IMG/VR virus record: IMGVR_UViG_3300034101_003783
Location: 1 to 64,000 of that record
DNA length: 64,000 nucleotides
Direction: 5' to 3' (one strand)
Origin: a virus
A program made the position numbers and the translations under genes. Below are positions 15,048-43,670 of this stretch, one piece after another. The notes under the pieces are model-generated. The model saw nothing but the letters and a program-made list of their open reading frames with translations, was not told where the DNA came from and did not search any database. How positions within the stretch are numbered: the stretch's first letter is position 1; the number at the start of each line of letters is the position of its first letter.

Positions 15048-18000
15048 TTAATTTAACTTAACTTTACCATTAAAGGTTTTTTTATCGTTATCCCAATTTG
15101 TTTGTCCGTATATCTGAGTTATTTCTTTTTTCTTATCATTAGTTAACCCATCATTACTGTTTAAGGGTTGGGTATTATATAATAGCCTTCTATTAGTACT
15201 ATCTTCTAATTTAAAGGTTTTTAGTTTTAAAAATTCAGTATTATTAGATCCTTCTTTCATTCTTAATTTATCTTTAGAATACGCTTCTTCATATAAAACT
15301 TTTAATGAATCTAATCTAGATGTTAAATCTTCTCTAGCTCCGGGTATTGCCTCTACTTCTGGTGTAGAGACAAACTCAACAAATAATAATTCATATTTAT
15401 CTTTATTTGTAAATGTTTGTGATAGTAAAGTATAAAATCTTTTACCTTCATCTGTAAATATATTAGATAATGAGTATTCTGTAGTTTCAAAACATTTTTC
15501 GTTATCATAAAATTGTGAGGTTGGTGAGGGTACTATTTTAGTTGCGTTTTCTAAGTTGGCATAATCATTTAAAGTTTTTGCGACTGTTAAATATTCTGTG
15601 ATTAATTTATCAAATACCGTAGCGTCTCCTGTTAAATTATAGATTTTAACATTACCATCAGGTAATATTTTACCATCAAGTCCTGTTAATGTTTGTACGT
15701 TACCTAATTTTTTAGTCGTAACTACATTAAGTTTATTAAAAGTTTTTATTAAATTTTGTTCGGTATCCACAATTGTATTTATTGGTTGGGCAATATCTCT
15801 TATTATTTCTTTTTCAACGCTCTCAACATATTTTTTTAATTTTGATTTTGTATCCCTAATTATGTTATCTTTATCCGCTAAAGATGGTATATCTAAAAAT
15901 ATAGTTATTATAGGATTTGTATCATTATTAATGTCTTCTTTTATTTTACTACTTAATTTATTTATTCTTTTTTCAAAATCATTTGGTTTACCATATAATT
16001 TAGTATCAACTAAACTAGCGGTATTTGTTATTGTATTACCTGATTTATAATTTCTTTCATAATTTACTAATTGGAACATGCTATAATTAAACTGATCAAC
16101 TATGGTATTATATTGATTATTGGTTATATTAATAAAGTCTCTTGTTTGATCTGATAATTGAGTATATATTTTTGTATAATCAATATCACCACTCTCAGTT
16201 TCACCACTTTTTATAGTAGTTAAAACAGTTCCTATTGTTTCTCCACCATCATTTGATTGTTCATTATTAACTGTTTGATTAGCAATTGCTTTATCAACTA
16301 ATTCTAAAAGTGCCAAGTTTAACTCAGTTTCCTCAGCCCTTTCATCGTACATTTCTGTATTAGCATAGAAGTTAAATGATAATGCGTTTTGTAAAGTTTC
16401 AACAGGTCTTGCTAATCCGTGTCCTCCAATAAATTTTAAATCTAAACTAACACTTACAATCATGGGTTGAACTCCAATTCCTTCGGGATTTATATCAAAA
16501 AACGGTGCCTCATAAGTTATTGATAGTGCTCCTGGTATTGCTTTAGTATGATAAAAGTCACCCACTCTTATAACCAATACAGGTGGTGCGCCAAATGTTG
16601 TGTTTAACGCATCATCATATTTTGGTCTACCGTCACTACCAATAACAGGTATTGTTTGTCCAGGTCTAACACATTGATTTAAAAATGTTAACCTAGCATT
16701 TAGACCTTCAGGTGTCATTGAGTGAAATGCCGGATTAAAGAATTTTAATTTATCTTTTAATGTTTCAAAAACCATTGGGTCGTTGTCTTTTAATAGTTCA
16801 AAATAATCACATTCGGTTAATAGTCTTCTTATTATTTTTTTACCTATAGCTTGTTTTAATTTATCTTGTATATCTGTATTTGGTTGTGGTTTAACTGCTT
16901 GTGGGTTTTGTTGATCAGGAGAACTTTGGTTTTTATTATTTTCTTCTTCAGGGTCTTTATTTGATAAATCGTCAACTATAGTTATCTTACTTATAATAGC
17001 ACAATTTACCGCCAAATTAGGATAACTATTGTTTTTTTGTTGTTGTGTTAAAGTTGTAACTGATGTTTGTGGTGATACTATAGTTTGATTAGTATTAAAA
17101 GAAGCCCCTGGTTGTGGTTGTGTCGGATTAACATAATTTTTAACCGTATTTTTAGTTAGTGTTCCTCCTATTGTTATTGTTAATTTTTTATTATCTATTT
17201 CTGTTTTTAATTTTTCAGTTAAAAATGTTTTTACTGATTCTGAAAACTGTTGATTTCTTCCTTCAATTTTTAAATCTATTATATTTTTGTTTGATATTAT
17301 GTCTTTTAATCCTCCTATAAACTCATTGTTTATTGCACTATAATTACTTTTTACTATATTATTTATAAAAACAGTTGTATTAGTCTTTTTATAATCTGTT
17401 GCTGATCCCCCTACAACACTACATTCGTCCGGAGAAAGTTGTGTAATTGTGTTAACATCCGATATATATTTATTTATTTGTTGTTCAAAATTTATATTAG
17501 TTGTTGATTCAGGAGAAAAATAAAATCCTATTCCTTCATAATTCAAACTAAAGTTTTTTTCCGCTTCAGGCGTATTACCTATAGTACTAGCATTTTCTGG
17601 TGATGTGTTTTCAGAAGGGATTTCATTTTGTATTTGTTCTAATTCTTCGGGAGTTAACCTTGGGTCATTAAGTAAGTTTTGATACATTTCAAGTTCTCTT
17701 AATGGTAACGTATTAAACTTTGCTGCTAATTCATAAAGGTCATATTTTGTACATCCAGCAATAAATGATTTAACAACCTGATCAAACTTTTCTTTACCTA
17801 ACTTTTCTAATTGTTTGTTCGCTAATAGATTCATTATTGATGGGTGGTCAACAACAATTTTAAAACCTAACTTACCCGATCTACTAGTGTTTTTATATGT
17901 GTATACAGGTTCAGGTCTTCCTAAAAATGATACTTCATCAAAAGAAGCAGAACTACCGTCATTGAATGTGACATCATATGGAGGAAACCACATAATTCTA

Positions 18001-19895
18001 CCTCCATTTGGTCCTCTTTCACATAGCGGTAATTCATCAACCGTAAAACCAGGTCTATCAGAAGTTCTCCAAGCTAAATTTTCAATTGATATCATATATT
18101 TTTTTGCCCCTTTTGAAGTTACATTAGTAGAACCAATCCCCTTTATTGGTGCAATATTTAAATTATATGTTTTATCAAGCACAGAATAAGAAAACCTTCT
18201 ATTTTCTGTTGTCATACCTTCTGACTTTTGTAAATCGTTAAATGTATAATATGGCGTATCTTTAGTAAACAACCTACAATATTCTATACCTGCCTCCTCT
18301 CCTGTTGCATTATCAACATAAGACATTATTTTAGAACCTTTTGTTATTTCTCTATAACCATCATGAAAAACTTTACTTACTTGATTAATAGCATTACCTG
18401 CATGTTTTAATCTTCTCTTACCGAATAGATTATCTGCAGAATTTATTAGTCTTTGTGTATTATCGAGTATTGACCCTTGTTTTAAACCAAAATTTGTTGA
18501 TTCATTAAAAAGATATGATGAACTTATTTGGTTAAACTCTTCATCTATAGTTGCGAGATCTCCACCTTTTTTAACTTTATAACCGGCTGCTTCTTTAAAT
18601 CTTGGTGATGTCCAAACAAATCCTCCGTCAGGTTTTCCTCCGTTCTCCGTTGAGATTCCGTTTAATCCAAAAAATGCCTGTTCCATTCCAGGTCCTTCAT
18701 ATTGATTTCCAACCTCATCGGGACCAAAAACAATTGCGTTTGTTAGCTTACCATAAGAATTAATAGGCACCGCGTTTACTGGTGAAGTTATAAATTCAGG
18801 TCTATTTACATCAGAACCAACATAATAACCTCCACTTAAAGAAGCACCAACAGATTTTAATATAGAGTTAACTCCAGTTAAAACGGCGTTACCCAAACCT
18901 CCTATCTCATATGAAGGTCTATAAATATTTTTATTTAATAATGTATATAATGTCGATATTTGACCTGCTCCTGTTTGTTCTAACAAACCTTTAGATGGTT
19001 GTAAAAGTCTACTTGACCCATCTGCTAAAAGATTAAAAGATCCTGCTGCGGTGTTTTGTAGTACATTAGCAATTTGATTACCTGTTGATGGATTTCTATT
19101 TGAGTCTTCATCAATAAATAATGGTCCAGTTAAAGGCGATCCAGGACTAAAGTCTCCTTTTAATCTATCTAAAAATGTGACATTATTTAATGGTACTGTT
19201 ATTCTATAATCTCTACTTGTACCAACACCACTTCCAGCCAATGCGGATGTTGATGTTAGGTTTGGGGTTGTTTGTCTAAATAATTGTCTTTGTTCTTCTG
19301 CCGCAATAGAAGCATTAAAATTAGTCTCTAATTTTGTTGCAGATAACCTCATTAAGTATGAGTCGCTGGATAATGAACCATCACTACCTATAGGATTATC
19401 TTGAGTGTATAAATTATAAGGATCATACTTAGATGGTGTAAAAAATATTGGGTCAAAATATGGTTGGTGTACTTGATTGGCTATTTGATATTCAGTCACA
19501 TCAAACATTTCATTATATCCACCAATAGGTCCGTACTTATTTTTACTGTATGCAGAATCTATAAAAAATTCATTTACAATATCTAAATTTGTTTCTGAAG
19601 GATCATATTCACCCTCATTTGAAGAATTTATAATAGGGTCTTGTTGTAACCCTATGGCATTTACAAAACCACCATTAGGTCCGTATTTATTTAATGGATA
19701 AAAAGTATCGGCTTCGTTTGTTGATCCAATGTTTGGTAAATTTAAATTTGAATATTCAGATAAATTAATTTCATAATTTTGAGGACCTAAAGGTGAGCTA
19801 AATGCTCCAGACACACTATATGGTGGTAAAGTCCTCGCTATTAATGAATTTCTAAAGCTAGCACTATTTTGAAAACTTAAACTACTCTGTGGCAT
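15048..19895 (-). CDS. Large multidomain baseplate structural protein (1615 aa)
   Basis: The N-terminal about 200 residues have repeated NKYGPxGG motifs (NKYGPNGGFVNAIG; NKYGPIGGYNEMF). Around residues 630-690 is a tail-adaptor-like module with WFPPYDV, SFLGRPEPVYTYKNTSRSG and LGFKIVVDHPS, matching the G-R-x-x-P-v-x-x-Y-x-x-x-x-R-x-x-x-F pattern of LysM-linked baseplate adaptor proteins. Residues about 770-935 may hold a degenerate OmpA-like domain (weak). Residues about 1100-1185 (RVGDFYHTKAIPGALSITYE, then SVSLDLKFIGG) look like a second adaptor-like beta region. It follows the tape measure gene and precedes gp53. A structural baseplate role is well supported by context, the exact T4 counterpart is not. 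Confidence 0.72.
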   Translation of the reverse strand: MPQSSLSFQNSASFRNSLIARTLPPYSVSGAFSSPLGPQNYEINLSEYSNLNLPNIGSTNEADTFYPLNKYGPNGGFVNAIGLQQDPIINSSNEGEYDPSETNLDIVNEFFIDSAYSKNKYGPIGGYNEMFDVTEYQIANQVHQPYFDPIFFTPSKYDPYNLYTQDNPIGSDGSLSSDSYLMRLSATKLETNFNASIAAEEQRQLFRQTTPNLTSTSALAGSGVGTSRDYRITVPLNNVTFLDRLKGDFSPGSPLTGPLFIDEDSNRNPSTGNQIANVLQNTAAGSFNLLADGSSRLLQPSKGLLEQTGAGQISTLYTLLNKNIYRPSYEIGGLGNAVLTGVNSILKSVGASLSGGYYVGSDVNRPEFITSPVNAVPINSYGKLTNAIVFGPDEVGNQYEGPGMEQAFFGLNGISTENGGKPDGGFVWTSPRFKEAAGYKVKKGGDLATIDEEFNQISSSYLFNESTNFGLKQGSILDNTQRLINSADNLFGKRRLKHAGNAINQVSKVFHDGYREITKGSKIMSYVDNATGEEAGIEYCRLFTKDTPYYTFNDLQKSEGMTTENRRFSYSVLDKTYNLNIAPIKGIGSTNVTSKGAKKYMISIENLAWRTSDRPGFTVDELPLCERGPNGGRIMWFPPYDVTFNDGSSASFDEVSFLGRPEPVYTYKNTSRSGKLGFKIVVDHPSIMNLLANKQLEKLGKEKFDQVVKSFIAGCTKYDLYELAAKFNTLPLRELEMYQNLLNDPRLTPEELEQIQNEIPSENTSPENASTIGNTPEAEKNFSLNYEGIGFYFSPESTTNINFEQQINKYISDVNTITQLSPDECSVVGGSATDYKKTNTTVFINNIVKSNYSAINNEFIGGLKDIISNKNIIDLKIEGRNQQFSESVKTFLTEKLKTEIDNKKLTITIGGTLTKNTVKNYVNPTQPQPGASFNTNQTIVSPQTSVTTLTQQQKNNSYPNLAVNCAIISKITIVDDLSNKDPEEENNKNQSSPDQQNPQAVKPQPNTDIQDKLKQAIGKKIIRRLLTECDYFELLKDNDPMVFETLKDKLKFFNPAFHSMTPEGLNARLTFLNQCVRPGQTIPVIGSDGRPKYDDALNTTFGAPPVLVIRVGDFYHTKAIPGALSITYEAPFFDINPEGIGVQPMIVSVSLDLKFIGGHGLARPVETLQNALSFNFYANTEMYDERAEETELNLALLELVDKAIANQTVNNEQSNDGGETIGTVLTTIKSGETESGDIDYTKIYTQLSDQTRDFINITNNQYNTIVDQFNYSMFQLVNYERNYKSGNTITNTASLVDTKLYGKPNDFEKRINKLSSKIKEDINNDTNPIITIFLDIPSLADKDNIIRDTKSKLKKYVESVEKEIIRDIAQPINTIVDTEQNLIKTFNKLNVVTTKKLGNVQTLTGLDGKILPDGNVKIYNLTGDATVFDKLITEYLTVAKTLNDYANLENATKIVPSPTSQFYDNEKCFETTEYSLSNIFTDEGKRFYTLLSQTFTNKDKYELLFVEFVSTPEVEAIPGAREDLTSRLDSLKVLYEEAYSKDKLRMKEGSNNTEFLKLKTFKLEDSTNRRLLYNTQPLNSNDGLTNDKKKEITQIYGQTNWDNDKKTFNGKVKLN

Positions 19896-24531: not shown

Positions 24532-27500
24532 TCACACATCTTCAAAAGAAGCTCCTGTTGGTGTGATGTAGAAAGTAATATCAATAAATTCTAAAGACCT
24601 TGTTGGTTTTATATAGATTTTACCTGTTAATTGGTTTCTATCTAAATCTTCAGGATCACTTGATACCGTTACTCTAAAGTCATATAAACCTCTATCTCTT
24701 CTAATTCCATCTAAAATTGGATTGACTGCATTTAAGAAATCTTGTCTTACTTTCTCATCATTTTGATCAAACAACAATCTTACTGAAACCGCTGAAATTA
24801 GTTTTCTTGCTTGTAATAATAATCTTCTTACGTTGATTCTATCAAGAGCCGATTGTCTAACTTGTAAAGTTTTATTACCCCATATTACAGTACCAACATC
24901 AGAGAAAGTGGCAATTGGGTTAATTCTTCCAAGGTAAAGAACGTCTCTATCTTCTTGAGTTAACTTCTTACGTGCTTTAATTGAGTTTACAATACCACGA
25001 GTGTAACCTGCCGCCGCAAACCAAGGGAAAGCAATATTATCTGTAAGTGCTAAGTTTCTTGTAACTTCAGCTGTCGGTGGTAAATAAATTTGAGTATTAT
25101 TTACACTATCACGAGTTAAAACCCAAGGATAATAAGTTGCGGTGTAGTTTGAGTCTATACCTGTTTCATCAAGATTATCAACCGCTTCTTGTGGATAAAT
25201 TAATCCATCAACTCCTGTTGTTGTAGGTAATAATAGGTTATAATCAGGTGTTGTTGTAATATACAATGAATCGGCTCTTTCATTTTCTATCATATCTATA
25301 GTTGCCTCAACTAAATCACTATTATTTACATAATCAATACCTGGTGTTGTAAATACATTAATGTTAACCGCCTCAGGATTAGCGAATGTTCTTATACCTA
25401 ATAAGTAAGCATAATAGTCAGTGTTTGCGTAATCTATTGTACCATCACCAACTGTTATTTGTTTAAACGCCCCCCATCCAATTGCCGATGGGTATCTTGT
25501 GGTTGCACAAGCTCCGTTAAGATATCCTGTTCTACCTAATTGGTATCTATCTGCGTTTGTTCTTCTTTCTCTGTATATATCCCATCCATCAAAACCTCCT
25601 TGTACTAATAAAGTAAATTTACGTGAAAATAATCTATAGTAAGAATTAGTCTCAACTGTTGGTTCACTACTAAAATCCGCATTGCCAACATAAAATCTTG
25701 GAGTACCGCTTGTTGCGAATGCGTTTGCGATTGTAATTCCACTTGCGTTTTTATCCATATGGAAACCTCTTGTTCTATATAACCAAGGAGATGAATCTGT
25801 CGCAAAACATATATTAGAAGGATTTCTCTTACCTTTATATTCGAAGAAACTTGGGTCATATCCATAATCACCGCTTGTAGAAAATCCTAAGAATGTTTTT
25901 CTAATATTATCACCTGAAGATAATCCAGCATCATCAGTGCCTGAAGGGGTACCAAATGGAGGATTGAAAACTAGTTCTCCCGGATAATCATATTTTGTTT
26001 TAAGAATTGGGAATGGTGATTTAGCTCCTGAATATTCTCTAAAGTTATAACCCTCAAAACCACAAGGTAACGAATCGATAGGGGCATCTTCATTCATCTC
26101 AACCATAACATATCTTGACCTTAATTCGTATTCACCATCTAATGTTCCTATTTTTTTAGCAATAAAACTATTTTCGTTTGGATTCATTGTACAGTTTGTA
26201 AATTTCTCAAGAACTACTGGATTTGAGTCTGTATCAAAATAATCTCTAATTAATACTGTAAATGTTTCATTAGCAAATGATATATCTGAAATTGATATTT
26301 TAATTTCAGTGTTTGCACTATTACCATCTGCTATTGTATAAAACTTAAATAAGTTAAAAACTTTAGAACCTCTTACTTCTGAAACCACCCACGGACTCTC
26401 TGGAGATTGGTATTTTTCTAAATACCACGCTATTGATGTAGGGTCTTCACTTTGAGCTTCAGGTAATGATATTAATTGACATTTTAAACCTCTAATATAA
26501 CCTTTATTATAAGACCATCTTAATAAGGATTGGAATCTTTCTTCAACAAATAAAGGAACTACATTTCTAGGTTTACCAAAGTTACTTGTACCAAAAACTT
26601 TTGTTAGATATTCTGAATCTGAATTAGCAAATGAAGTAACAAACGTAAAATTATTACCCAAATAATTAGTGGCGTTAATTGCAAATTTTGCAAAAGGATT
26701 TTTAAGTACATCAACATACTGACCTGAACAATCAATATTTACATCTGTTAATCCTGTTATTTCATATCTTGGGTTAACATCATCACTATAATCGGCAACA
26801 CCTCTTGATCTTAATGTTGCGACAACCATATCATCATATTGTGTGTAAGAGTTACCGGTATAATAATAAATCATACCTATCATTGTCCCTGAATAACAAT
26901 CAAGAATAGTTGTTGTTGTAGTTGTTGTAGGTACAACAGGTGTTGGTGTAACACAAGGATTTGTTGTTGTACTTGTTGTTGTAGGTGCTGAAGTTGTTGT
27001 TGTAATAGGGTTTATTAATGTAAGTCCTGAAACTACAGACCAAAAAGAATAACCAGAATAATTACCATTACCAATATTTTCAAATAACGCATAATACCAT
27101 GTATCATTAAATGGTGATAAGTAATTAGTTAAAGTACTTGATGGTGATGGTACATCAAAAACATTAGTTGATGCGGTATAACCCGATGATAAAATATCAT
27201 AATCTTCACCATCTATTGTACCAAAATAAGCAATAGAAGTACTTTGTGATAATGGATTTAAAATTCTCTCATATGCAAATACTTGTAAATCATTTAACAA
27301 CGTTGATGTATTACCATTAAATTGTTCATATTCATTATTTATTATATTAGCAATTTCTTCAGGAAATGAACTACCGTCAAACCCAAACTCAACACTAGAT
27401 GAACTATTAGTACATCCCGTGAAATTTATTACAAATGGTAATGTTTTTGCTGATACACATATAGGTTCACAAGATCCTGAAGGAGTAACCTCACTTAAAC

Positions 27501-27873
27501 AATAAGGTTCTAATGTTGATGGGTCTAAATTTGCACTTGTTACTATAGACCAAGAAGGTCCCGCATCATAACCTGATAAACCTAAAACTCTTGTTACAAA
27601 AAGTTGATTTGATTGTTGTAAATAAGATTTAGCAATATATGCTGCTTCATATTTTGGTATTTGTGTATTAACAAATTTTTCAGGTGAAGTACCTCCAAAG
27701 TAAGATTGGAACTCATCATAATTCTTTATGAATATAGGTTCAAAAGCCGGTCCCTTTAAAGTTTCTCCAGCAATACCTAAAGTTGTAACACCAACACTTT
27801 GTGCTACAAAACTTAAATCTACTTCTGAAGTATAGACACCAGGTGAAACAAAAATTTTACTGTTAGTTGCCAT
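24532..27873 (-). CDS. 18: Tail sheath protein, gp18-like, with a large insertion
   Basis: Contractile sheath subunit. The N-terminus is diagnostic (FVSPGVYTSEVDLSFVAQSV, then TTLGIAGETLKGPAFEP and NYDEFQSYFGG). The C-terminal domain has LDRINVRRLLLQARKLISAV, FDQNDEKVRQDFLNAVNPIL and a strand-rich ending LEFIDITFYITPTG, which form the conserved inner core. At 1113 aa it is far longer than T4 gp18 (659). The extra sequence lies roughly at residues 110-480, including a Thr-rich linker (about 288-322, TTTTSAPTTTSTTT), and would project from the sheath surface. It is followed by a strong terminator and preceded by a TATTTATA box 37 nt upstream. Confidence 0.93.
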   Translation of the reverse strand: MATNSKIFVSPGVYTSEVDLSFVAQSVGVTTLGIAGETLKGPAFEPIFIKNYDEFQSYFGGTSPEKFVNTQIPKYEAAYIAKSYLQQSNQLFVTRVLGLSGYDAGPSWSIVTSANLDPSTLEPYCLSEVTPSGSCEPICVSAKTLPFVINFTGCTNSSSSVEFGFDGSSFPEEIANIINNEYEQFNGNTSTLLNDLQVFAYERILNPLSQSTSIAYFGTIDGEDYDILSSGYTASTNVFDVPSPSSTLTNYLSPFNDTWYYALFENIGNGNYSGYSFWSVVSGLTLINPITTTTSAPTTTSTTTNPCVTPTPVVPTTTTTTTILDCYSGTMIGMIYYYTGNSYTQYDDMVVATLRSRGVADYSDDVNPRYEITGLTDVNIDCSGQYVDVLKNPFAKFAINATNYLGNNFTFVTSFANSDSEYLTKVFGTSNFGKPRNVVPLFVEERFQSLLRWSYNKGYIRGLKCQLISLPEAQSEDPTSIAWYLEKYQSPESPWVVSEVRGSKVFNLFKFYTIADGNSANTEIKISISDISFANETFTVLIRDYFDTDSNPVVLEKFTNCTMNPNENSFIAKKIGTLDGEYELRSRYVMVEMNEDAPIDSLPCGFEGYNFREYSGAKSPFPILKTKYDYPGELVFNPPFGTPSGTDDAGLSSGDNIRKTFLGFSTSGDYGYDPSFFEYKGKRNPSNICFATDSSPWLYRTRGFHMDKNASGITIANAFATSGTPRFYVGNADFSSEPTVETNSYYRLFSRKFTLLVQGGFDGWDIYRERRTNADRYQLGRTGYLNGACATTRYPSAIGWGAFKQITVGDGTIDYANTDYYAYLLGIRTFANPEAVNINVFTTPGIDYVNNSDLVEATIDMIENERADSLYITTTPDYNLLLPTTTGVDGLIYPQEAVDNLDETGIDSNYTATYYPWVLTRDSVNNTQIYLPPTAEVTRNLALTDNIAFPWFAAAGYTRGIVNSIKARKKLTQEDRDVLYLGRINPIATFSDVGTVIWGNKTLQVRQSALDRINVRRLLLQARKLISAVSVRLLFDQNDEKVRQDFLNAVNPILDGIRRDRGLYDFRVTVSSDPEDLDRNQLTGKIYIKPTRSLEFIDITFYITPTGASFEDV
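26905..27010. repeat. GTT/GTA microsatellite coding for the Thr-rich sheath linker
   Basis: The plus strand shows repeated GTTGTTGTA-type triplets, read on the minus strand as runs of ACA/ACT threonine codons. It lies within the sheath insertion. Confidence 0.75.
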
Positions 27874-29769: not shown

Positions 29770-31533
29770 TTGTCTACTAATAAACAATTAATAGAACATC
29801 AAGCATTAGAACTTTTGGGCACATATAGTGGAGCCAATAATCATATATTATATATTAAATCTAAAAAAGAATCTAACAAAAAATTCTACCCAACAAGAAC
29901 ACAGTCAGAATATATAATTAATTATTACAATACACAACCAAAAGTTGCAAGAAGATGGGTTGATTTAGATACTTATTTTGCTAAAAAATTTTCTGAAGAA
30001 AGATATCTTTTAAAAGTTCCTGAAAAAATCTATGTTGAAAAATTATTAGTTGAGAAAGAAAAGTCTTACCATATTTGGGGTAAATTTTTTGATAATGATC
30101 CTTTGTCTGAATTTTGGGTACCAAAATCTGCATTAATTAAATCACACACAATAGAAGAAGTAAAAATAGATTATTCTAAATACGGGCACAGACCCCCGCT
30201 TTCACACCAAAAGGAAGCAATAGAAAAATTGGTTGGGTCAAGAAGGTTTATTTTGGCCGATGACATGGGTCTTGGTAAAACTACCTCAACAATAATTGCG
30301 GCTTTAGAGACAGGTGCAAAAAAAATATTAATTATATGTCCAGCTTCTCTTAAAATAAATTGGGAGAGAGAAATTGCAAATTATTCAGATAGAAGTTGTT
30401 TCATTGCGGAAGGGAAAAAGTATTCTACAGAATCGGATTTTGTTATAGTTAATTATGACATATTAAAGAATTTTCATGACCCTAAAGATTTAGAAAAATC
30501 ACTTCTTAATAAATCTAATTTTGAGTTGGTTATATTGGATGAAGCTCATATGGTTTCTAATGCTCAAGCCCAAAGAACAAAAATTATTAACAGTTTTGTT
30601 AAAAAAATTAAAAGAGTATGGTTATTAACCGGTACTCCGATGACATCAAGACCTATAAATTATTATAACCTTTTAAATATAATTGAAAGTCCTGTTGCTC
30701 AAAATTGGATGGCCTACGCTATAAGGTACTGTCAAGGATATCAATTTAATGCCGGTAAACGTAAGGTATGGAATGTCACGGGAGCATCTAACTTAGAAGA
30801 ATTAAAGGATAGAACATCTAAACAAATTTTAAGAAGATTAAAAGAAGAAGTTTTAGATTTACCTGATAAAATCATTACTCCGGTATATTTAAGACTAAAG
30901 TCAAAAGAATATGAAGAATTAATGGGAGAATATTATGATTGGTTTGATAAAAACCCAAACGAGTCTTCTTCACTTACAGTACAGTTCTCAAAACTAATGA
31001 AAGTTAGAAAAGTAATTGCAAATGAAAAATCAAAACAAACAATAGAATTTGCTGAAAATATTTTAGAACAAGGTAAAAAAGTTATTATATTTACAAACTT
31101 TACAGATACGTTACAAACAATATATCAACACTTTGGTAAACAAGCGGTTTATTTAGATGGAAGTTGTAATAAAGTACAAAGACAATATGCTGTAGACCAA
31201 TTTCAAGAAAACGATAAAATAAAAGTTTTTGTCGGTAATTTAAAAGCGGCAGGAGTTGGTTTAACTTTAACATCAGCGGAGGCTGTAATAATGAACGATC
31301 TATCATTTGTACCCGCAGAACATTCACAAGCGGAAGATAGAGCTTATAGATATGGTCAAAAAAATAACGTATTAGTATATTACCCATTATTTGATAATAC
31401 AATTGAAGGTGCTATCTATGATATACTAAACCACAAGAAAAAAATAATAGGAACAGTAATGGGAGATGAAATTTCTGAAAATGTTGGTGATGTTGTTGAA
31501 GAGATTTTAAACCTTATTAATAAAAGAAGATAA
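29770..31533 (+). CDS. SNF2-family helicase/translocase (HARP/SMARCAL1-type arrangement)
   Basis: ATP-driven DNA translocase. The start is a TTG at 29770, just after an AAAGG sequence; no upstream or early in-frame ATG exists. The N-terminal 140 residues are a separate domain ending in KYGHRPPLSHQKEAIEKL, the Q-motif region. Motif I is ADDMGLGKTT (163-172), motif II is DEAH (257-260), motif III is LLTGTPM, and motif VI is QAEDRAYRYGQKN, the SNF2 hallmark. At 587 aa it is close to T4 UvsW (503), which acts at stalled forks, but the motif set is SNF2 rather than UvsW type. A role in fork remodelling or transcription-replication switching is inferred. It is divergent from the tail operon. Confidence 0.87.
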   Translation: MSTNKQLIEHQALELLGTYSGANNHILYIKSKKESNKKFYPTRTQSEYIINYYNTQPKVARRWVDLDTYFAKKFSEERYLLKVPEKIYVEKLLVEKEKSYHIWGKFFDNDPLSEFWVPKSALIKSHTIEEVKIDYSKYGHRPPLSHQKEAIEKLVGSRRFILADDMGLGKTTSTIIAALETGAKKILIICPASLKINWEREIANYSDRSCFIAEGKKYSTESDFVIVNYDILKNFHDPKDLEKSLLNKSNFELVILDEAHMVSNAQAQRTKIINSFVKKIKRVWLLTGTPMTSRPINYYNLLNIIESPVAQNWMAYAIRYCQGYQFNAGKRKVWNVTGASNLEELKDRTSKQILRRLKEEVLDLPDKIITPVYLRLKSKEYEELMGEYYDWFDKNPNESSSLTVQFSKLMKVRKVIANEKSKQTIEFAENILEQGKKVIIFTNFTDTLQTIYQHFGKQAVYLDGSCNKVQRQYAVDQFQENDKIKVFVGNLKAAGVGLTLTSAEAVIMNDLSFVPAEHSQAEDRAYRYGQKNNVLVYYPLFDNTIEGAIYDILNHKKKIIGTVMGDEISENVGDVVEEILNLINKRR

Positions 31534-31572: not shown

Positions 31573-31890
31573 ATGAATAGATATAATCAAAAAAAAATAG
31601 AAAGTCTTGTTAGAAGAATAGTAAGAGAAGAAGAAGAATCTTTTGATCTTAAAAAAACTGTTATGGATACCGCTCAATTTGAGGAAGAAGATATACCAGC
31701 CGAGTGTACTGATGATCCAAGTAAACCGAGGATTGAAAATATCCAAGCTTGTATTAACAAAATAACTGAAAAATCAACCGCACTTAATAATGCAATTAAA
31801 GCATTATCTGATTCACTTAATAAAGCAAAAACTGAGGCAAGTTCAGTACAGACAGAGTCAAGAAGATATAGAAGTAGATATAGATACTAA
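31573..31890 (+). CDS. Small hypothetical protein with basic N-terminal helix (105 aa)
   Basis: Not recognised. It starts MNRYNQKKIESLVRRIVREE, an amphipathic basic helix also seen at the front of other proteins here. A short acidic segment with a lone cysteine (DIPAECTDDPSK) follows, then a helical coiled-coil-like region about 55-95. The ending is Arg/Tyr-rich (SRRYRSRYRY), suggestive of nucleic acid or capsid-interior contact. It is monocistronic: a TATTTATT box in front and a strong terminator 18 nt after the stop imply strong, separate late expression. This expression pattern fits a packaged or scaffold-type protein, though no function is shown. Confidence 0.72.
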   Translation: MNRYNQKKIESLVRRIVREEEESFDLKKTVMDTAQFEEEDIPAECTDDPSKPRIENIQACINKITEKSTALNNAIKALSDSLNKAKTEASSVQTESRRYRSRYRY

Positions 31891-32400: not shown

Positions 32401-32429
32401 AAACCCCATTTTAAAAGATGGGGTTTTTT
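32401..32429 (+). terminator. Strong intrinsic terminator after the 123-aa gene
   Basis: AAACCCCAT (32401-32409) pairs with ATGGGGTTT (32418-32426) and T residues follow. The right arm can alternatively pair with AACCTCATCT at 32387-32396 (ten pairs, one G-U), which would break the terminator. Confidence 0.88.
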
Positions 32430-32440
32430 AATTAATTTGA

Positions 32441-32448
32441 TATTTATC
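32441..32448 (+). promoter_or_regulatory. TATTTATC box directly before the fusion gene
   Basis: Plus strand GATATTTATCTTTAATG. The gap to the ATG is only 4 nt. Confidence 0.4.
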
Positions 32449-32452
32449 TTTA

Positions 32453-34585
32453 ATGAAAGTTACTTTTAAAAATATTGGGGCCAATATAGACACTAAAAAA
32501 AAAGAATTATTAAAAAAATTTTGTAAGTTTTTACAAAAAAATTATGGATTAAAAAATGATTTAACGATTACTTTTGTTGGTGAAAGAATTGGTAGAATGA
32601 CAACAGGTAGTCAGCATAAAGAAAAAGGTATTAAAGTCTTAGTTAACAATAGAATGAATAGAGACATTCTAAGAACTCTGTCACATGAGTGGATTCATTC
32701 TTATCAAAGAAATGTTATTGGCAGAGAAAGAGGTCCAGATATTGGAGGTAAAAATGAAGACGAAGCTAATGCGTTGTCGGGATCTTTAATAAAAAAGTTT
32801 GAAAAGGAAAACCCTGATTTAGAGGATATAATTTTTGAAGGTTTTAAACCAATACATAAAAAATTAGAATTAATTAAAGAAGAAATATTAATACAAGATA
32901 AGAAAAAAATTAAGAGTGATTTTATCTTAGAGATGAAGAAAATAGGTATTGATAAATTACCGTACTCATATTCGGCAATAAAACAATTTGTTGATCCTAA
33001 AACAATGGATATTCACTATAATAAACATTACAAAGGTTATGTAAAAAAATTAAATGATGCCTTATCTAAAAAAAATTATGGTGATTTAGATTTAGAAGAT
33101 ATTATAAAATCAATAAGTAAATACGACGATACTATTAGAAATAATGCAGGGGGAGCATTTAATCACGCATTATTTTGGAAAATGTTATCCCCTAAAAAAC
33201 AAATACCAAAAGGTGAGATCCTTAAAAAAATTACGGGTCAATATGGTAACATAAAAAAAATGAAAGACGAATTTAACGAAGTTGCAAAAAAAAGATTTGG
33301 GTCTGGTTGGGCTTGGTTAATTTTAACAAAAAATAATACTTTAAAAGTCATCTCAACACCAAATCAAGATAATCCACTTATGAATGTAATTAAGGGTGGT
33401 GGTTTTCCACTTTTAGGACTTGATCTTTGGGAACATGCTTATTATTTAAAATACCAAAATAAAAGAGACGAATATATAAAAAAGTTTTGGAATTATGTTA
33501 ATTGGGATTTTGTTAATGATCTTTTTATAAAAAAAACAAATAAAAAACCTTTAGATGAGTCTGTTAAAAATAAAAAATTAATAACTGAAAAAAAAGAAGT
33601 TTTTCCATTAACACCTACATCATTTAAAAATATTATTAATAAAGTTTATCCTATATGTGAAGGGAATACATATATGGATGGATGTTTAGGTAAAATAGAA
33701 ACAGATGATTGTAAAACAGATGAGGGAGTTATTGGTGGTAATTTCACAGAACAAAACTATGGTGGTATCGGTAATTGGTCGATCATAAATAGATTTGACA
33801 CAAATAGTTCTGTACATAAAGAAATACAGAAAATATGGATAGAAGAAACTGATGGTTTAGATAATTTTAGAGGATGGATTTTAAATAATATAAAAGATTT
33901 AGTTGGTAATGAAGGTAGATTTACTGAAAGGTTAGTTAGATTAAATAGTCAGATAATATTAGATGGTAGAGCAAATGAAAATTACGCAAAAAGTGTTTTG
34001 ATACGATCCTTTAAATTAAACCCAGAAGAGGAAAATTTAACTTGGAAAATAAATGAACGGTGTGCTGGTGATACAAGAGATAGAAAATTAGGTCAAGATT
34101 TTGATGTTATTATTGATAACATTTCTTACTTTATTCAAGTAAAACCAACTGTTTATACCTCCATAGAAAAATATGGTTCAGAAAGAGGTTATTATTATAA
34201 GGTACCTTCTTGGCATAATCACAGTAAATACAAAGAACAAAATGTTGATATAATTTTGTATGTTGATAAACAAAATGAAAAATATATAATGTTTAGAAAC
34301 GACTACACAAGAATCCAAACTGTTGCAAATCCATCAACTTTTCCTAAATTTTATGTTATATATTATGAAAACCCATTAAAAAGTAATATGGAATTTGAGG
34401 TAAAATTAGAAAAAGAATCAACAGAAAAAAAACCTAAATTACAAAGAGATGTTGATAAAGAAATTGAGTACTTTAAAGAAAGAATTCAATATTATAAAGA
34501 CAAACTAAAAGAGTTAGGACATTCTGATGAAATAAATGAAATGATTAATCATTATAGAAAAGAATTAAAAGAACTTATTAATTAA
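32453..34585 (+). CDS. Three-part fusion: HExxH metallopeptidase-like, Mn/Fe superoxide dismutase, nuclease-like domain
   Basis: Residues 1-130 carry H78-E-W-I-H82 and, 20 residues on, NEDEANALS, with E102 or E104 as a possible third zinc ligand, a minigluzincin-like layout. Residues about 160-360 are a complete superoxide dismutase. The metal ligands are H188 (MDIHYNKHY), H238 (NNAGGAFNHALFW), D324 and H328 (LLGLDLWEHAYY). The signatures RFGSGWAWL and STPNQDNPLM (Q305) point to the Mn-type or cambialistic group. Residues 385-650 are unassigned. Within them, QDFDVIID then YFIQVKP (D549 or D551, Q562, K564) looks like a PD-(D/E)xK-type nuclease core. The last 45 residues are coiled coil. No signal peptide was seen. 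The SOD part is certain, the flanking calls are inference. Confidence 0.85.
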   Translation: MKVTFKNIGANIDTKKKELLKKFCKFLQKNYGLKNDLTITFVGERIGRMTTGSQHKEKGIKVLVNNRMNRDILRTLSHEWIHSYQRNVIGRERGPDIGGKNEDEANALSGSLIKKFEKENPDLEDIIFEGFKPIHKKLELIKEEILIQDKKKIKSDFILEMKKIGIDKLPYSYSAIKQFVDPKTMDIHYNKHYKGYVKKLNDALSKKNYGDLDLEDIIKSISKYDDTIRNNAGGAFNHALFWKMLSPKKQIPKGEILKKITGQYGNIKKMKDEFNEVAKKRFGSGWAWLILTKNNTLKVISTPNQDNPLMNVIKGGGFPLLGLDLWEHAYYLKYQNKRDEYIKKFWNYVNWDFVNDLFIKKTNKKPLDESVKNKKLITEKKEVFPLTPTSFKNIINKVYPICEGNTYMDGCLGKIETDDCKTDEGVIGGNFTEQNYGGIGNWSIINRFDTNSSVHKEIQKIWIEETDGLDNFRGWILNNIKDLVGNEGRFTERLVRLNSQIILDGRANENYAKSVLIRSFKLNPEEENLTWKINERCAGDTRDRKLGQDFDVIIDNISYFIQVKPTVYTSIEKYGSERGYYYKVPSWHNHSKYKEQNVDIILYVDKQNEKYIMFRNDYTRIQTVANPSTFPKFYVIYYENPLKSNMEFEVKLEKESTEKKPKLQRDVDKEIEYFKERIQYYKDKLKELGHSDEINEMINHYRKELKELIN

Positions 34586-34593
34586 ATCTAAGA

Positions 34594-34601
34594 TATTTAT
34601 A
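34594..34601 (+). promoter_or_regulatory. TATTTATA box, 14 nt before the gp13-like gene
   Basis: Plus strand GATATTTATATAAAAAC then ATG. Confidence 0.55.
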
Positions 34602-34615
34602 TAAAAACAATCAAC

Positions 34616-35740
34616 ATGTCAATAATAAGTAACGAAGAAAGAGAAAGGTTATATACAAGAGTTAGACATATCTTGGGAGCTCCATTAAGATCTGTGGAAT
34701 TAGAAGATGAACAACTAGATACTCTTCTTGAATTCTCAATTGAGGATTACTCACAATATGTTCAGGATTGGCTAACTGAAAGTCAATGGTCAAACCTTTG
34801 GGGTTTAAACGTTGAGACTCAATCGTTGTCTAGGGCTTTTATGACAAAAAGTTTAGACTATGAGACAAGATATACATATGCCTATTCAAAAATAGTAGGA
34901 CTACAAGCCGGAGGGGATTGGGTTTTAAAGAAAGACTATATACAATTACAGGCAAAACAACAAATTTATGAAATACCTGCAGGAAGAGAATTAAATGAAT
35001 TACTTTGGTTTACACCACCTGAGATGAATAATTTATTATTTGATCCTTGGGCTTTTGGGGGTATTGCGGGTGGGGGTATTTCAGGACCAGCAGGATACGC
35101 TCAGGTTGGTAATGTATCGGGAAGTTACTTTTTAATGCCGGCATTTGATATGTTATTAAGAATGCAAGAGATAAATATCCAAAGAAGGATAATTGCAGGA
35201 GATCTTACATATAGAGTTACCGCTTTACCTGACGGTAAAAAGGCGATTCATTTAATGAACACTCCTGGTGGTAAATTTGACTTTGGTAACTCAACTTTAA
35301 TGAGAGGTAAAGTTTGGTATTGGTATTATGATACTAATGATGGTGATAGAGATAAATGTTTAAAAGATAATCCTGATATAATTAAATTACCGTCAGATGT
35401 TCCATTTGATAAATTATCTTGGGATGATCTTAATAATCCAGCCCAAATTTGGGTTAGAAGATGGTTCGTTGCTTCGGCAAAAGAATTACTATCAAAGGTT
35501 AGAGGTAAATTTAGTGGTAATCTTAAAACACCTGATGGAGATTTAACTATGGAATATGCAACTTTAGCCACTGAAGGTAAAGATGAAAAGACAAAATTAA
35601 TAGAAGAGTTAACAGGGGCTGAAGGTAAATTAACAAGATTAAGACCTGATAAAGTTATGGAGAGGGAAGCTTTAATTGCCGAAAACCTAAACAAGTCTCT
35701 TAAGTTTAGAGCCATGCCAAGACAAATTTATGTAATATGA
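34616..35740 (+). CDS. 13: Neck protein, gp13-like
   Basis: A 374-aa protein with the T4 gp13-type layout. It has an N-terminal helical part (EERERLYTRVRHILGAPLRS, then LEFSIEDYSQYVQDWLTESQ), a Gly-rich central loop (AFGGIAGGGISGPAG, about 147-161) and a beta-rich part (GKVWYWYYDTND). After that come WVRRWFVASAKELLSKVRGK and a helical C-terminus ending FRAMPRQIYVI. T4 gp13 is 309 aa and, with gp14, forms the collar joining head and tail. It is on the opposite strand from the gp14-like gene, 4.9 kb away, so the usual 13-14 adjacency has been broken. The next gene overlaps its stop by 4 nt. Confidence 0.82.
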   Translation: MSIISNEERERLYTRVRHILGAPLRSVELEDEQLDTLLEFSIEDYSQYVQDWLTESQWSNLWGLNVETQSLSRAFMTKSLDYETRYTYAYSKIVGLQAGGDWVLKKDYIQLQAKQQIYEIPAGRELNELLWFTPPEMNNLLFDPWAFGGIAGGGISGPAGYAQVGNVSGSYFLMPAFDMLLRMQEINIQRRIIAGDLTYRVTALPDGKKAIHLMNTPGGKFDFGNSTLMRGKVWYWYYDTNDGDRDKCLKDNPDIIKLPSDVPFDKLSWDDLNNPAQIWVRRWFVASAKELLSKVRGKFSGNLKTPDGDLTMEYATLATEGKDEKTKLIEELTGAEGKLTRLRPDKVMEREALIAENLNKSLKFRAMPRQIYVI

Positions 35741-39525: not shown

Positions 39526-39870
39526 TTAATTATATACTCTTATTTCTATTGATACGTTATCTAATAAACCGTTTGTTTTTACTCCTGAAATGTTTTGAGT
39601 TCCAACATTAATTACATTATCACTTAATCTTCTTATTTTAATGAAAGCAATATCTATTGGTGTTATAAAAAGCATTGTCTTTCCTGAAACAAAATCGTTA
39701 TTTGTTGATGTTAATAAATACTCCCCTGTACTATCATATGTCCAAGTCATAGTAGACACAAAAGTATTATCTAACACAGTTACTGATGGTGGGGATGTTC
39801 CTACTTGACTTAAATTTGCAACATAAGTCTTATATGTATTATTACTTGATGTTATATATTTTGTTGACAT
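39526..39870 (-). CDS. Small beta protein following the repeat adhesin (114 aa)
   Basis: Not recognised. It is Thr/Ser/Asn-rich and strand-rich (VSTMTWTYDSTGEYLLTSTN), with no cysteine or membrane segment. Its ATG shares one base with the stop of the 1266-aa adhesin gene (TAATG), so it is translationally coupled to it. Small beta proteins coupled to fibre genes are often fibre caps, chaperones or a second subunit. Which applies here cannot be read from the sequence. Confidence 0.65.
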   Translation of the reverse strand: MSTKYITSSNNTYKTYVANLSQVGTSPPSVTVLDNTFVSTMTWTYDSTGEYLLTSTNNDFVSGKTMLFITPIDIAFIKIRRLSDNVINVGTQNISGVKTNGLLDNVSIEIRVYN

Positions 39871-42800
39871 TATGAGTTTACGTTTACTATAATTAAATTA
39901 TCAAGAGCATCAAAATAGCTCAATCTATTATTACCTCCAGAATTCTCAAATAAAGTACAATTATATGAATTATATACATGTGTTGCAGGTGAAAAATCAG
40001 TACCCGTAATTTGAGTTTGTGTTATATTATATTGAAAGTTAGGACCAACAATATTTCCTTGGAAGTCATTAAAAATATTATTATTATTAAAATTACTAGC
40101 AATTTGATTTCCTACTATGTGGTCGCCAATTTGATTATCGAAAATATTTGATCCCCATATATTACCAGACACAAAAGGTTGTCCACAAAAATTACCTATT
40201 GTATTGTGTTGGAAATCATTACCTATATTATTACCATAAAAAGAATCATTTGTATGATTAGATGAAAAGTTTGTTCCTACTTCATTAATCCAAGAAAAAT
40301 ACCCAATTCTGTTATCTGTTGCAAAATCAGCAAAAGTATTTAAATTAAAAAAGTACCCAATTTCATTATCAGCAAAATAAGAACCTAAAGTATTTTCATA
40401 AAATATATCAGCAATACGATTAAAATTAAAACCATCTGTGATAGTATTTCTACTACATCCATAACCTATAACATTATTAAAATATCCTAAATCTGATGTA
40501 TTAACTGTTACATTATATGTAAATGACTCACCTATCACATTTTCCGCAAAATTATTTCTTATTATGTTACCACCATCACCGTTATCTACCAAATCAAAAC
40601 CAAAATAATTACCAATAGTGTTTCCTGAAAATTTATCTAAGATAATATTTGATATTCCAGTTGTTTTATAACTACCAAAATTATTTCTAATAAAGTTATT
40701 TTGGAAATATGTACCTATTTGATTATTAATAAAAGTATTACCTATTAAATTATTTTGGGTGAAACCGCTAGCCAATGGCTCAATTGTGTATCCTGTTATA
40801 ACTGCGGATGACCCACTCAAATTATCTATTGTGTCGCCAACAGTTAAATCACCTATAATCAAATTTATTATCATTTCATCAACCCCATTATCACTAACTA
40901 CTTCAGCACTTCCACCAAAACCATCCTCAATTGTTTCACCAATATTAAATGTATTTATATCTGTTATGGTGATAGTCGCATCATTACCTCCTGTCGTTAT
41001 TGTAATAATGTCACCAACAGAATAGTATGTTCCGGCATTACTTATTGTTACACTAATTATAACACCAAAACCATCTGTTGTAATATCAACAGTAAGACCT
41101 ACTCCTGTTCCTCCGTATGTTGTTGGTACTCCTGTGGAATTTGAGTAACCTGATCCACCATTATTTAAGTTTATTGTTGTTGGAATTCCTTTTAATGTCG
41201 AATACCCTACTGTTGTTACAACCCCTATTAAGTTTGCTCCTGTATCAGTTAAACCATCATTTCCAAAATAATTACCAATATGGTTATTTTGGAAAAATCC
41301 ACCAATTATTTGTTTTTCGTTTGTACACCCAAAATAATCCCCAATATCATTTCCTTGAAAATTTGGCCCTACTGTGTTATTAACAAAATAATTTTTTATA
41401 TTATTAAAAATAAAATTGTCATCTATAACATTTTTGTTAAAACCATTACCTATATTGTTATTATATGTATTATTTGATATTTCATTGTCTTGAAAAAAAT
41501 CTCCTATTGTGTTACCTAAAGGTATAACCGAATCAGTCCCAAAGTTATTTCCAATAGTATTAGATTTAAAATTATTACCTATTCTATTATATGAAAAATC
41601 AGAACCATTATCACCTTTTTGTGCATATATTGAATTCCAGGTTGTACCTGAAGGACTTAATAGTGAATTAAAACTACCCTCAACGGCTGAATTATAAATA
41701 CCACCCCCAATATTAGATCTTGTTATTTCTAAAAATCCAGGTATAATAACATCTATTTCAGAACCAAAATCTGTTTTAGTAAATAATAATTTGTTACCTA
41801 TAGGTGTTCCTACAGAATCATATTCTTGTCTTTCGTATTGGAATCCTCCATTATTTATTGACCATTGTTTAAAAATAATTGAAAAGTATCTGTCTGGTAT
41901 GGTATTAACTTTCATTATTAGTTCTTTACCAACTATTAAATCATCTATCGAACCATCTAATGAATCATTAAAGGTTACATAATTTCTATTTGATATAGTA
42001 TTAAAATCACTAAAACCAAAAAAATAATTATTAATAGGAGAGTTTCCAAAAAACCCATCATTAATGACGTTACTACTAAAATTATAACTAAATAAATTTT
42101 TAGTGGCGTTATTTCCAATACTGTTGGAGACAAATCCATCACCTATCGTATTACTAGAAAACTTATTTTTTATTACATTTTCTTTAAACGAATCATCAAT
42201 TATATTTGCAAAAAATCCCTGACCAATGTCATTCCCTTCAAAGACACCATAAATTATATTTTTTGTAAAATCATCATAGATATTATTATTATTAAAATTT
42301 GAAAATAGTCTAATGTTATCAAAATTATCTTTTATTGTGTTAGATGAAAATACAAAATTATTTTTGTTAAAGGCATCCCCTATAATATTGTTAGTAAAAT
42401 AATTACCTATTTGATTATCTGAAAATTGGTTATATATGATATTATTAATAAAATTATTACCTATTTGATTATCTGAAAACGAGGTTGAGTTTTCACCTAA
42501 AAATCTATTCGATTCAAATACATCACCAATAATATTATTGGAAAGATTACAATTTATTATATTATTATTAAAATAATAACCAAAAACACACTCATCGATA
42601 TCATTTGTTGAGACGTTTTCAAAACAATAATCCCCCCAAACGTTATTTTCATTGTCGGTACCAAAAGTATTATTGTAACTATTGTTACCTATTTTATTAT
42701 TATTGTATTCACCCTCTAAAAATAAATTATTTGATAGTAAAAAAATACCTGACCCAATATTTTGATAATTATTAGCATAATCACCAACGTAATTATTAAT

Positions 42801-43670
42801 GGCATAACTATTAAGGATTGCATCACCAAAAGTAGTTTTTTCGTAAAAATCATTAGTTTTAACATTTGTTTGTTTATAACTAAAATAACCATTAGTACCA
42901 TTTGTTTCTTCTATACCTAAATAAAAAGATAAATTGTTACCTGTTGTTATGGTGTCACCAGTTATTGTCATAGAGGTATCATTACTTATATTAACAACCT
43001 CAAAAAAACTAGGATTTATTCCATCAACATATATTACATCACCTAAACTTAAATCTGTAAATTTTGTATTTGTACCTGTAACAACACCACCTAATGCAAT
43101 GTCAATTAAACCATTTAATGGTAAATCAAATCTATAGGTATATAATTTGTATCTCTTAAATAATATGTTTTTATGGTCATAGTCTGTTCTATTATTAAAC
43201 TCATCAATTCTTTCTGTAATTCTCCCAAAAGCAACACCGTTTGTTACTTCAGTTGTAGAAAAAGTCCAATCATATCTTATTCTGTCAAAGGGGTGTGATG
43301 ATTGATAAGCAACTTCACTTATTGTATTAATGCTTGTTGCTAAAACCATAATAGGTTCTACCGGTCCTTGTTTGTAATTTCCTGTTGTTATTGGGTTATT
43401 GTTTACATCAAAATTAGGTTGATCATAACAAGTTCTAAAATTTACAATGTTATAGAAGGCACCAGGTATTAAACTATTATTTGTAATTAAATTTACAAAT
43501 GATGCGTATGTAATAGGGGTCGCACTTAAAACCCAACTTTGGAAATCTATTATTGGTGTGTGTTTTGTGGTTCCTGTTTGTACATCATAATTAACTATTG
43601 GCATAATGTCTGCCGATGTGTACCCTGTATTTCCTACATATGGTAATTGTGATATTCTTTTATTTGCCAT
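39870..43670 (-). CDS. Long tail fibre/adhesin with nonapeptide repeats (1266 aa)
   Basis: Probable receptor-binding fibre. Residues 1-50 (ISQLPYVGNTGYTSADIMPI) match the N-terminus of the 325-aa fibre protein, suggesting a shared attachment module. Three tracts (about 285-555, 690-800 and 965-1210) are built from a 9-residue unit, [I/V]-G-x-x-F-x-x-N-x, for example IGNGFNKNV and IGDYFGCTN, which should form a right-handed beta-solenoid-like fold lined with Asn ladders. Between the second and third tracts (about 815-970) is a Gly/Thr-rich beta insertion (NNGGSGYSNSTGVPTTYGGT) common in fibres. It is the largest gene of the host-recognition block and follows a TATTTATA box. No enzymatic motif was seen. 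Confidence 0.8.
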   Translation of the reverse strand: MANKRISQLPYVGNTGYTSADIMPIVNYDVQTGTTKHTPIIDFQSWVLSATPITYASFVNLITNNSLIPGAFYNIVNFRTCYDQPNFDVNNNPITTGNYKQGPVEPIMVLATSINTISEVAYQSSHPFDRIRYDWTFSTTEVTNGVAFGRITERIDEFNNRTDYDHKNILFKRYKLYTYRFDLPLNGLIDIALGGVVTGTNTKFTDLSLGDVIYVDGINPSFFEVVNISNDTSMTITGDTITTGNNLSFYLGIEETNGTNGYFSYKQTNVKTNDFYEKTTFGDAILNSYAINNYVGDYANNYQNIGSGIFLLSNNLFLEGEYNNNKIGNNSYNNTFGTDNENNVWGDYCFENVSTNDIDECVFGYYFNNNIINCNLSNNIIGDVFESNRFLGENSTSFSDNQIGNNFINNIIYNQFSDNQIGNYFTNNIIGDAFNKNNFVFSSNTIKDNFDNIRLFSNFNNNNIYDDFTKNIIYGVFEGNDIGQGFFANIIDDSFKENVIKNKFSSNTIGDGFVSNSIGNNATKNLFSYNFSSNVINDGFFGNSPINNYFFGFSDFNTISNRNYVTFNDSLDGSIDDLIVGKELIMKVNTIPDRYFSIIFKQWSINNGGFQYERQEYDSVGTPIGNKLLFTKTDFGSEIDVIIPGFLEITRSNIGGGIYNSAVEGSFNSLLSPSGTTWNSIYAQKGDNGSDFSYNRIGNNFKSNTIGNNFGTDSVIPLGNTIGDFFQDNEISNNTYNNNIGNGFNKNVIDDNFIFNNIKNYFVNNTVGPNFQGNDIGDYFGCTNEKQIIGGFFQNNHIGNYFGNDGLTDTGANLIGVVTTVGYSTLKGIPTTINLNNGGSGYSNSTGVPTTYGGTGVGLTVDITTDGFGVIISVTISNAGTYYSVGDIITITTGGNDATITITDINTFNIGETIEDGFGGSAEVVSDNGVDEMIINLIIGDLTVGDTIDNLSGSSAVITGYTIEPLASGFTQNNLIGNTFINNQIGTYFQNNFIRNNFGSYKTTGISNIILDKFSGNTIGNYFGFDLVDNGDGGNIIRNNFAENVIGESFTYNVTVNTSDLGYFNNVIGYGCSRNTITDGFNFNRIADIFYENTLGSYFADNEIGYFFNLNTFADFATDNRIGYFSWINEVGTNFSSNHTNDSFYGNNIGNDFQHNTIGNFCGQPFVSGNIWGSNIFDNQIGDHIVGNQIASNFNNNNIFNDFQGNIVGPNFQYNITQTQITGTDFSPATHVYNSYNCTLFENSGGNNRLSYFDALDNLIIVNVNS
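40040..40770. repeat. C-terminal nonapeptide-repeat tract of the adhesin
   Basis: 27-bp periodicity coding [I/V]-G-x-x-F-x-x-N-x units; boundaries approximate. A short non-repeat turn interrupts it at several places. Confidence 0.65.
41270..41600. repeat. Central nonapeptide-repeat tract of the adhesin
   Basis: Consecutive units read IGNGFNKNV, IDDNFIFNN, IKNYFVNNT, VGPNFQGND; boundaries approximate. Confidence 0.68.
42005..42815. repeat. N-terminal nonapeptide-repeat tract of the adhesin
   Basis: Includes a near-exact DNA duplication: ATTACCTATTTGATTATCTG occurs at 42402-42421 and again 54 bp later, exactly two 27-bp units. Boundaries approximate. Confidence 0.68.

Follow-up and report, generated by a model that had tools for sequence, protein, structure and literature searches.

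One uninterrupted frame of 710 codons, located directly before the neck gene of a T4-like phage, raises the question of whether it codes for a single enzyme with three domains or for several enzymes made as one chain. The window analyzed, 64,000 nt long, is one part of a viral record of 104,017 bases. The initial annotation read the frame as one triple enzyme, consisting of a metallopeptidase, a superoxide dismutase (SOD) and a nuclease-like domain.

The fusion gene is part of a widespread modular family

The frame starts with ATG and contains no internal stop codon, in agreement with the initial annotation, which had also placed it correctly before neck gp13: the next gene codes for a T4-type neck/adaptor protein (Table 1). 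Scans of IMG/VR yielded 245 viral loci matching the fusion protein, with relatives matching over its whole length, and 425 loci matching its first (zincin) domain; the best 80 of the 245 and the best 80 of the 425 were examined. A total of 244 complete zincin-SOD frames, a number which includes some duplicates because some contigs came up in several scans, were reduced to 50 divergent representatives.

The first two modules were found in all 50 representatives, the HExxH+E residues and the four SOD ligands being kept in every one. The third module is swapped (types CA, CB and CC) or missing. The architectures observed were zincin-SOD alone (mostly 362-372 aa), zincin-SOD-CA (the window), zincin-SOD-CB, zincin-SOD-CC and zincin-SOD-CC-CA, one relative of the last type carrying two CC copies. 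The occurrence of unfused zincin-SOD forms of 362-372 aa shows that the nuclease is not required. The neck gene directly follows the fusion in 47/50 representatives, with a gap of mostly 24-60 bases; in the remaining three, tandem CC genes take its place. The fusion belongs to a modular family that is widespread and whose tail can be exchanged.

The unusual size of the fusion, and the fact that its modules are separate adjacent genes in some relatives, could suggest that adjacent genes were joined during assembly or gene calling. The whole-length relatives, with identical joints, in many independent viral contigs rule out such an artefact, the probability of which we consider negligible; absence of the fusion from related phages had been named as grounds for rejecting it.

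None of the annotated phage records held the fusion, confident matches being limited to the SOD part. A literature search, thin on subscription papers, found no report of an SOD fusion or of a prohead-processed enzyme polyprotein.

Table 1. Features of the fusion gene and its surroundings (window coordinates; a slash marks the candidate cleavage position)
Feature	Coordinates	Strand	Basis or remarks
SNF2-family helicase, conserved on the upstream side of the slot	29770..31533	+	
105-aa gene with N-terminal tag (MNRYNQKKIESLVRRIVRE/E)	31573..31890	+	
Terminator-like hairpin and T-run (ACCCCATTTTAAAAGATGGGGTTTTTT), end of preceding gene	32401..32429	+	read from sequence
TATTTAT box, candidate late promoter of fusion gene	32441..32447	+	upstream motif count
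Fusion gene, 710 aa	32453..34585	+	single ATG-started frame, 710 codons, no internal stops
Module 1, zincin-like, residues 1-129	32453..32839	+	invariant residues, AlphaFold2, Foldseek
Linker 1, residues 130-168	32840..32956	+	candidate prohead-protease sites LIKE143/E and ILE160/M; IFE129/G just before
Module 2, Fe/Mn superoxide dismutase, residues 169-362	32957..33538	+	Pfam, PDB sequence matches, invariance
Linker 2, residues 363-379	33539..33589	+	candidate sites PLDE369/S and LITE379/K
Module 3, type CA, PD-(D/E)XK-like nuclease, residues 380-650	33590..34402	+	invariance, AlphaFold2, Foldseek
Charged helical C-terminal tail of module 3, residues 651-710	34403..34582	+	AlphaFold2 helices
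TATTTAT box of neck gene	34594..34600	+	upstream motif count
Neck/head-tail adaptor protein, T4 gp13-like	34616..35740	+	PHROG 211, 1.2e-9; synteny

Three domains are recognized in the chain

The HEWIH motif reported at residues 78-82 is present, and H78, E79, H82 and E104 are invariant in 51/51 sequences (window plus 50 representatives), as is E129 (IFE/G), at which module 1 closes. In the AlphaFold2 model of this domain (pLDDT 89), helices 69-89 and 99-119 carry HExxH and the Glu ligand, respectively. Foldseek searches of predicted viral structures gave 24 matches at E <= 1e-3, headed by a stand-alone 127-aa phage protein (1.1e-13); others were annotated as IrrE-like (E 1.9e-6) and SprT-like (E 2.1e-4). 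The top PDB matches to the model were zincins, e.g. 1oz9, thermolysin and M61, none at E <= 1e-3. A PDB sequence-profile search with the domain gave no match, and none was found in cellular genomes in a first scan of genome contigs. The predicted fold supports the earlier assignment of a zincin-like domain, of the IrrE/SprT type. In one relative (L280) the zincin occurs alone, as an untagged protein of 128 aa whose last residue is equivalent to E129.

Module 2 matched Pfam Sod_Fe_N (PF00081) at residues 166-246 (1.5e-20, 73.9 bits, cut-off 27) and Sod_Fe_C (PF02777) at residues 252-356 (9e-39, 132.1 bits, cut-off 20.9); nothing else in the 710-aa protein gave a significant Pfam match. The closest solved structures by sequence were bacterial SODs (5.7e-61). 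The four metal ligands previously listed, H188, H238, D324 and H328, are invariant in 51/51 sequences, and the FGSGWAW and STPNQDNPLM motifs were both found in the translation. Against the 80 best cellular matches (mostly from Bacteroidota, the nearest with about 55% identity), the SODs of the family formed a single branch (100/100). Stand-alone phage SODs were ruled out as close kin, with 25-31% identity over the matched part.

The D...QVK pattern described in the C-terminal segment was recovered as D549, Q562 and K564, which together with E509 and D540 are invariant in the 21/21 members containing CA. These residues fit the PD-(D/E)XK superfamily pattern of a core acidic residue, (D/E/Q)-x-K and a helix Glu. 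The AlphaFold2 model of CA (pLDDT 83) had I-Ssp6803I as its top PDB match by Foldseek (probability 1.00, E 2.6e-3, TM 0.40-0.45 on target), followed by DpnI, HJC, RecU and MGME1; the two helices of the tail correspond to model residues 290-311 and 315-332. The model suggests a possible PD-(D/E)XK nuclease-like fold for the segment that the initial annotation had read as nuclease-like. The 13-residue spacing from D549 to Q562 in D...Q-x-K appears to match that of I-Ssp6803I. PDB sequence-profile searches with the CA and CB domains gave no match; CB is a putative nuclease, on the basis of a motif.

Two further module types were observed. CC, which has no Pfam match, occurs as tandem small genes of about 100-150 aa next to the fusion in L059-L061, L149, L160 and L161, and copies also sit inside the fusion. 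CD (GIDC...TAQIKP), nuclease-like, is found alone in L239:4017-4898 and fused to SOD in L247:3317-4918.

The architecture of zincin-like, SOD and nuclease-like domains was supported by Pfam, the predicted folds and the invariant residues. Of the reading as one triple enzyme, the three domains stood; the modular family with its swappable tail, and joints resembling protease sites (see below), had gone unnoticed.

Late-type promoter boxes and likely host

The sequence TATTTAT was found within 60 bp upstream of 16 of the 52 window genes, the fusion and neck genes included, when about 1.8 were expected. This enrichment bears out the late-type box that had been noted and, together with the place before the neck gene, supports a late, structural-gene context for the fusion gene. 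TATTTAT(A) is probably the late promoter of this lineage; across the window it precedes many genes, mostly structural. The hairpin and T-run at the end of the preceding gene may, judging from their sequence, affect transcription. A search for RNA families near the fusion locus found none.

Shine-Dalgarno-like sites were detected in 1/52 window genes; such sites are nearly missing in Bacteroidota genes. The capsid protein is nearest to those of Flavobacterium phage immuto, Microcystis phage Mel-JY01, Rhodothermus phage RM378 and uncultured phages. A Bacteroidota host is likely for the T4-like phages carrying the fusion.

Further large genes lie in the structural region of the window. The tail sheath (24532-27873, 1113 aa) matches sheath families in its last third only (about residues 823-1110), so that some 820 residues at the N-terminus have no assignment. 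Three giant frames on the minus strand (8323-14733, 15048-19895 and 39870-43670; 2136, 1615 and 1266 aa), without PHROG match, are interspersed with genes for the baseplate, the tail and other parts of the structural region.

The joints resemble prohead-protease sites

The T4 prohead protease gp21 recognizes L/I-X-E and cuts behind it, and the C-terminus of T4 Alt is likewise cleaved (PMC9026906). What is new here, as far as sequence can tell, is that the joints of the fusion carry (L/I)-x-E, the published gp21 cleavage motif.

[LI]xE is present in every linker. In linker 1 it was observed 166 times among the 50 representatives (shuffled 88 +/- 7.5, maximum 112 of 2000) and in linker 2 it was observed 84 times among the 43 representatives with a tail (shuffled 31 +/- 4.7, maximum 48), counts which overstate independence because the representatives are kin and (L/I)-x-E is short. 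The motif is depleted in the zincin body (40 observed, 82 shuffled) and at chance in the SOD body (61 observed, 68 shuffled). The joint glutamates are conserved, E129 and E160 in 51/51 sequences and E143 in 50/51. Linker 1 is helical in the AlphaFold2 model, and helix packing, not cleavage, could be what keeps E160 conserved.

The same genome encodes an S77 prohead protease (Peptidase_S77, PF03420, 3.6e-22), which was aligned with T4 gp21 over the catalytic region, as well as a T4-like portal and capsid protein. In the capsid protein, ENQASFLINE/ATSETSNG aligns where T4 gp23 has SFLTE/AEIGG, suggesting a T4-like cleavage site at FLINE/A. Between the protease and capsid genes lies a gene for an acidic protein, scaffold-like, in which near-identical GEDMMTYEDMSYEDEL repeats are numerous (L170:1840-3492, same genome).

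Since the joints resemble prohead-protease sites, a polyprotein cut into separate proteins is likelier than one triple enzyme.

Modules occur as separate tagged genes in relatives

Most modules were also found as genes of their own in relatives, several of them in the same slot before gp13, and most of these unfused modules carry a short N-terminal segment ending in the joint motif. In L239, CD (ITLVLSES/KAEK) and CA (IKENINE/D) are two genes in the same helicase-to-neck slot. In L247/248 an SOD-CD protein without zincin starts with MKYIENKIQLIENSILMES/A, and the next gene is a separate CA starting with MKYIFTES/Q. The fused CD of L247 (QILAES/T) and the separate CD of L239 are 47% identical, the motif lying inside the alignment. 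CB occurs alone in L216 (HVLNE/I), and CA alone in L279 (IIVE/A), L280 (IITE/A) and also L277; in all, tagged stand-alone CA copies were seen in L238/239, L247/248, L277, L279 and L280. Stand-alone CC genes begin with MKIIITES/..., and fused CC is preceded by TINES/.... The simplest reading of these sequences is that the joints are former N-terminal tags.

With the N-terminal tag defined as [LIV][LIVT]xE[SNAQEGD] within residues 3-35, tags were found in 67 of 236 unique genes of the phage loci (28%; shuffled 16.5, maximum 29). Among 301 control genes from chromosome loci dominated by Bacteroidota, 10 had a tag (3%; shuffled 12.8). The slot of the 105-aa gene holds similarly tagged genes in several relatives. 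Some tags recur on many otherwise unrelated genes, genome-wide in related loci: MKIIITES..., MKRIIRLTESDLARIVRRVIxE..., MSNSRSQTKIRKTQQVNLLxEQ... and MENKKLQEQITxMKxLMSEQ. Examples of tagged genes are 31573-31890 in the window, L216 8429-9387, L122 7200-7942 and L280 4396-4731. These recurrent segments look like head-packaging tags.

These findings bear on two other explanations of the fusion. It could act uncut, as a late enzyme of several cooperating domains or as an auxiliary metabolic protein, with the SOD protecting the cell late in infection, nothing being cut or packaged and the linkers serving as helical spacers. Stand-alone SODs in Vibrio phage 2.275.O and the Pseudomonas PA5oct/MIJ3 group, and the helical prediction for linker 1, are in agreement with this explanation. 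However, it leaves unexplained the motif at every joint and at the N-terminus of separate genes, its depletion inside the zincin and the fixed position next to the neck gene, and we consider this explanation improbable.

Alternatively, the fusion could be a polyvalent protein, injected or acting in the cell, from which the embedded zincin, and not the prohead protease, frees the modules. The HExxH+E residues are intact in the fusion zincin, and in polyvalent proteins zincins are the most frequent hub domain, with a proposed role in processing the chain (Iyer et al. 2017, PMC5512222). Against this, (L/I)xE precedes modules that have no fused zincin, or none visible at the locus (L239, L247/248, stand-alone CC), and the joint motifs fit the published prohead-protease motif (PMC9026906). 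Processing by the zincin therefore appears unlikely.

Proposed mechanism

The reading that we favor is that the gene encodes a late polyprotein which would be packaged into the head and which the prohead protease would mature into individual enzymes, probably ejected with the DNA; we regard this as reasonably probable. A TATTTAT box of its own would drive late transcription of the gene, which lies directly before the neck gene; the motif counts support this step. Tag-like segments, here between the domains and not N-terminal, would bring the chain into the prohead core. The S77 gp21-like protease would then cut the joints after (L/I)-x-E, as the motif and the comparison of relatives suggest, giving a zincin of roughly 129 residues, an SOD that spans approximately residues 161-369 and a nuclease that spans approximately residues 380-710. 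By analogy with T4 Alt and the internal proteins, the mature head would retain the products, and they would reach the cell together with the DNA.

The SOD may remove superoxide in the head or in the newly infected cell; an anti-oxidant role of the predicted enzyme on ejection, as first proposed, is plausible. The nuclease may attack or block other DNA; if packaged, it would have to be prevented from acting on the DNA of the phage itself. The zincin may cleave host proteins or help processing. Since it has no N-terminal tag, either fused or alone (L280), its packaging is the weakest step. Such a chain could have originated when neighboring tagged genes were joined, the tags being kept as linkers.

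A wider proposal, for which we see about even chances, is that in a T4-like lineage, probably of Bacteroidota, the prohead protease serves as a polyprotein processor: head-bound enzymes including an SOD would be synthesized as a single chain, enter the head together and be separated there at (L/I)-x-E joints that were formerly packaging tags, as modular cargo that is fused, split and swapped. If true, an antioxidant enzyme joins what phages may inject, multi-domain phage effectors would be shown to be built from tagged single genes, and a readable sequence tag would predict head cargo in many uncultured phages. The way in which polyvalent phage proteins are released would become directly testable.

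Comparison with known systems

Of the systems described so far, polyvalent proteins are closest in kind, and in mechanism the closest are the T4 internal proteins and Alt. Like polyvalent proteins (PMC5512222), the fusion is one mobile-element chain with several unrelated enzyme domains, including a zincin-like metallopeptidase, and with predicted co-delivery with DNA; host delivery of polyvalent proteins with the DNA was inferred there too (Iyer et al. 2017, PMC5512222). At least two biochemically unrelated domains per chain define such proteins, and the fusion has a zincin, an SOD and a nuclease-like domain. The word "superoxide" is absent from the main text of that study. Unlike polyvalent proteins, the fusion has a tail that is swapped among related phages, modules that also occur as neighboring tagged genes, and joints with prohead-protease motifs.

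With T4 IPI-III and Alt the fusion shares a T4-type head with an S77 protease, (L/I)-x-E segments by the mature protein, late genes and variable cargo. The T4 cargo consists of single proteins trimmed at their ends, whereas the fusion has several enzyme domains per chain and internal motifs: a capsid targeting sequence ending in (L/I)-x-E is absent from its N-terminus, the motifs lying at the inter-domain joints. The fusion is therefore said to work like the T4 internal head proteins and not to be a member of that group.

The SODs of Pseudomonas phages PA5oct/MIJ3 and Vibrio phage 2.275.O also belong to the Fe/Mn-SOD family and to large phages, but they are separate short genes, and their identity to the fusion is only 25-31% across the part of the SOD that matches. 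P1 DarB and other defence proteins are large, are loaded into the head through a targeting signal and are delivered to the host (PMC9024508). The fusion resembles DarB in its proposed head loading and host delivery; P1 has a different head-assembly system.
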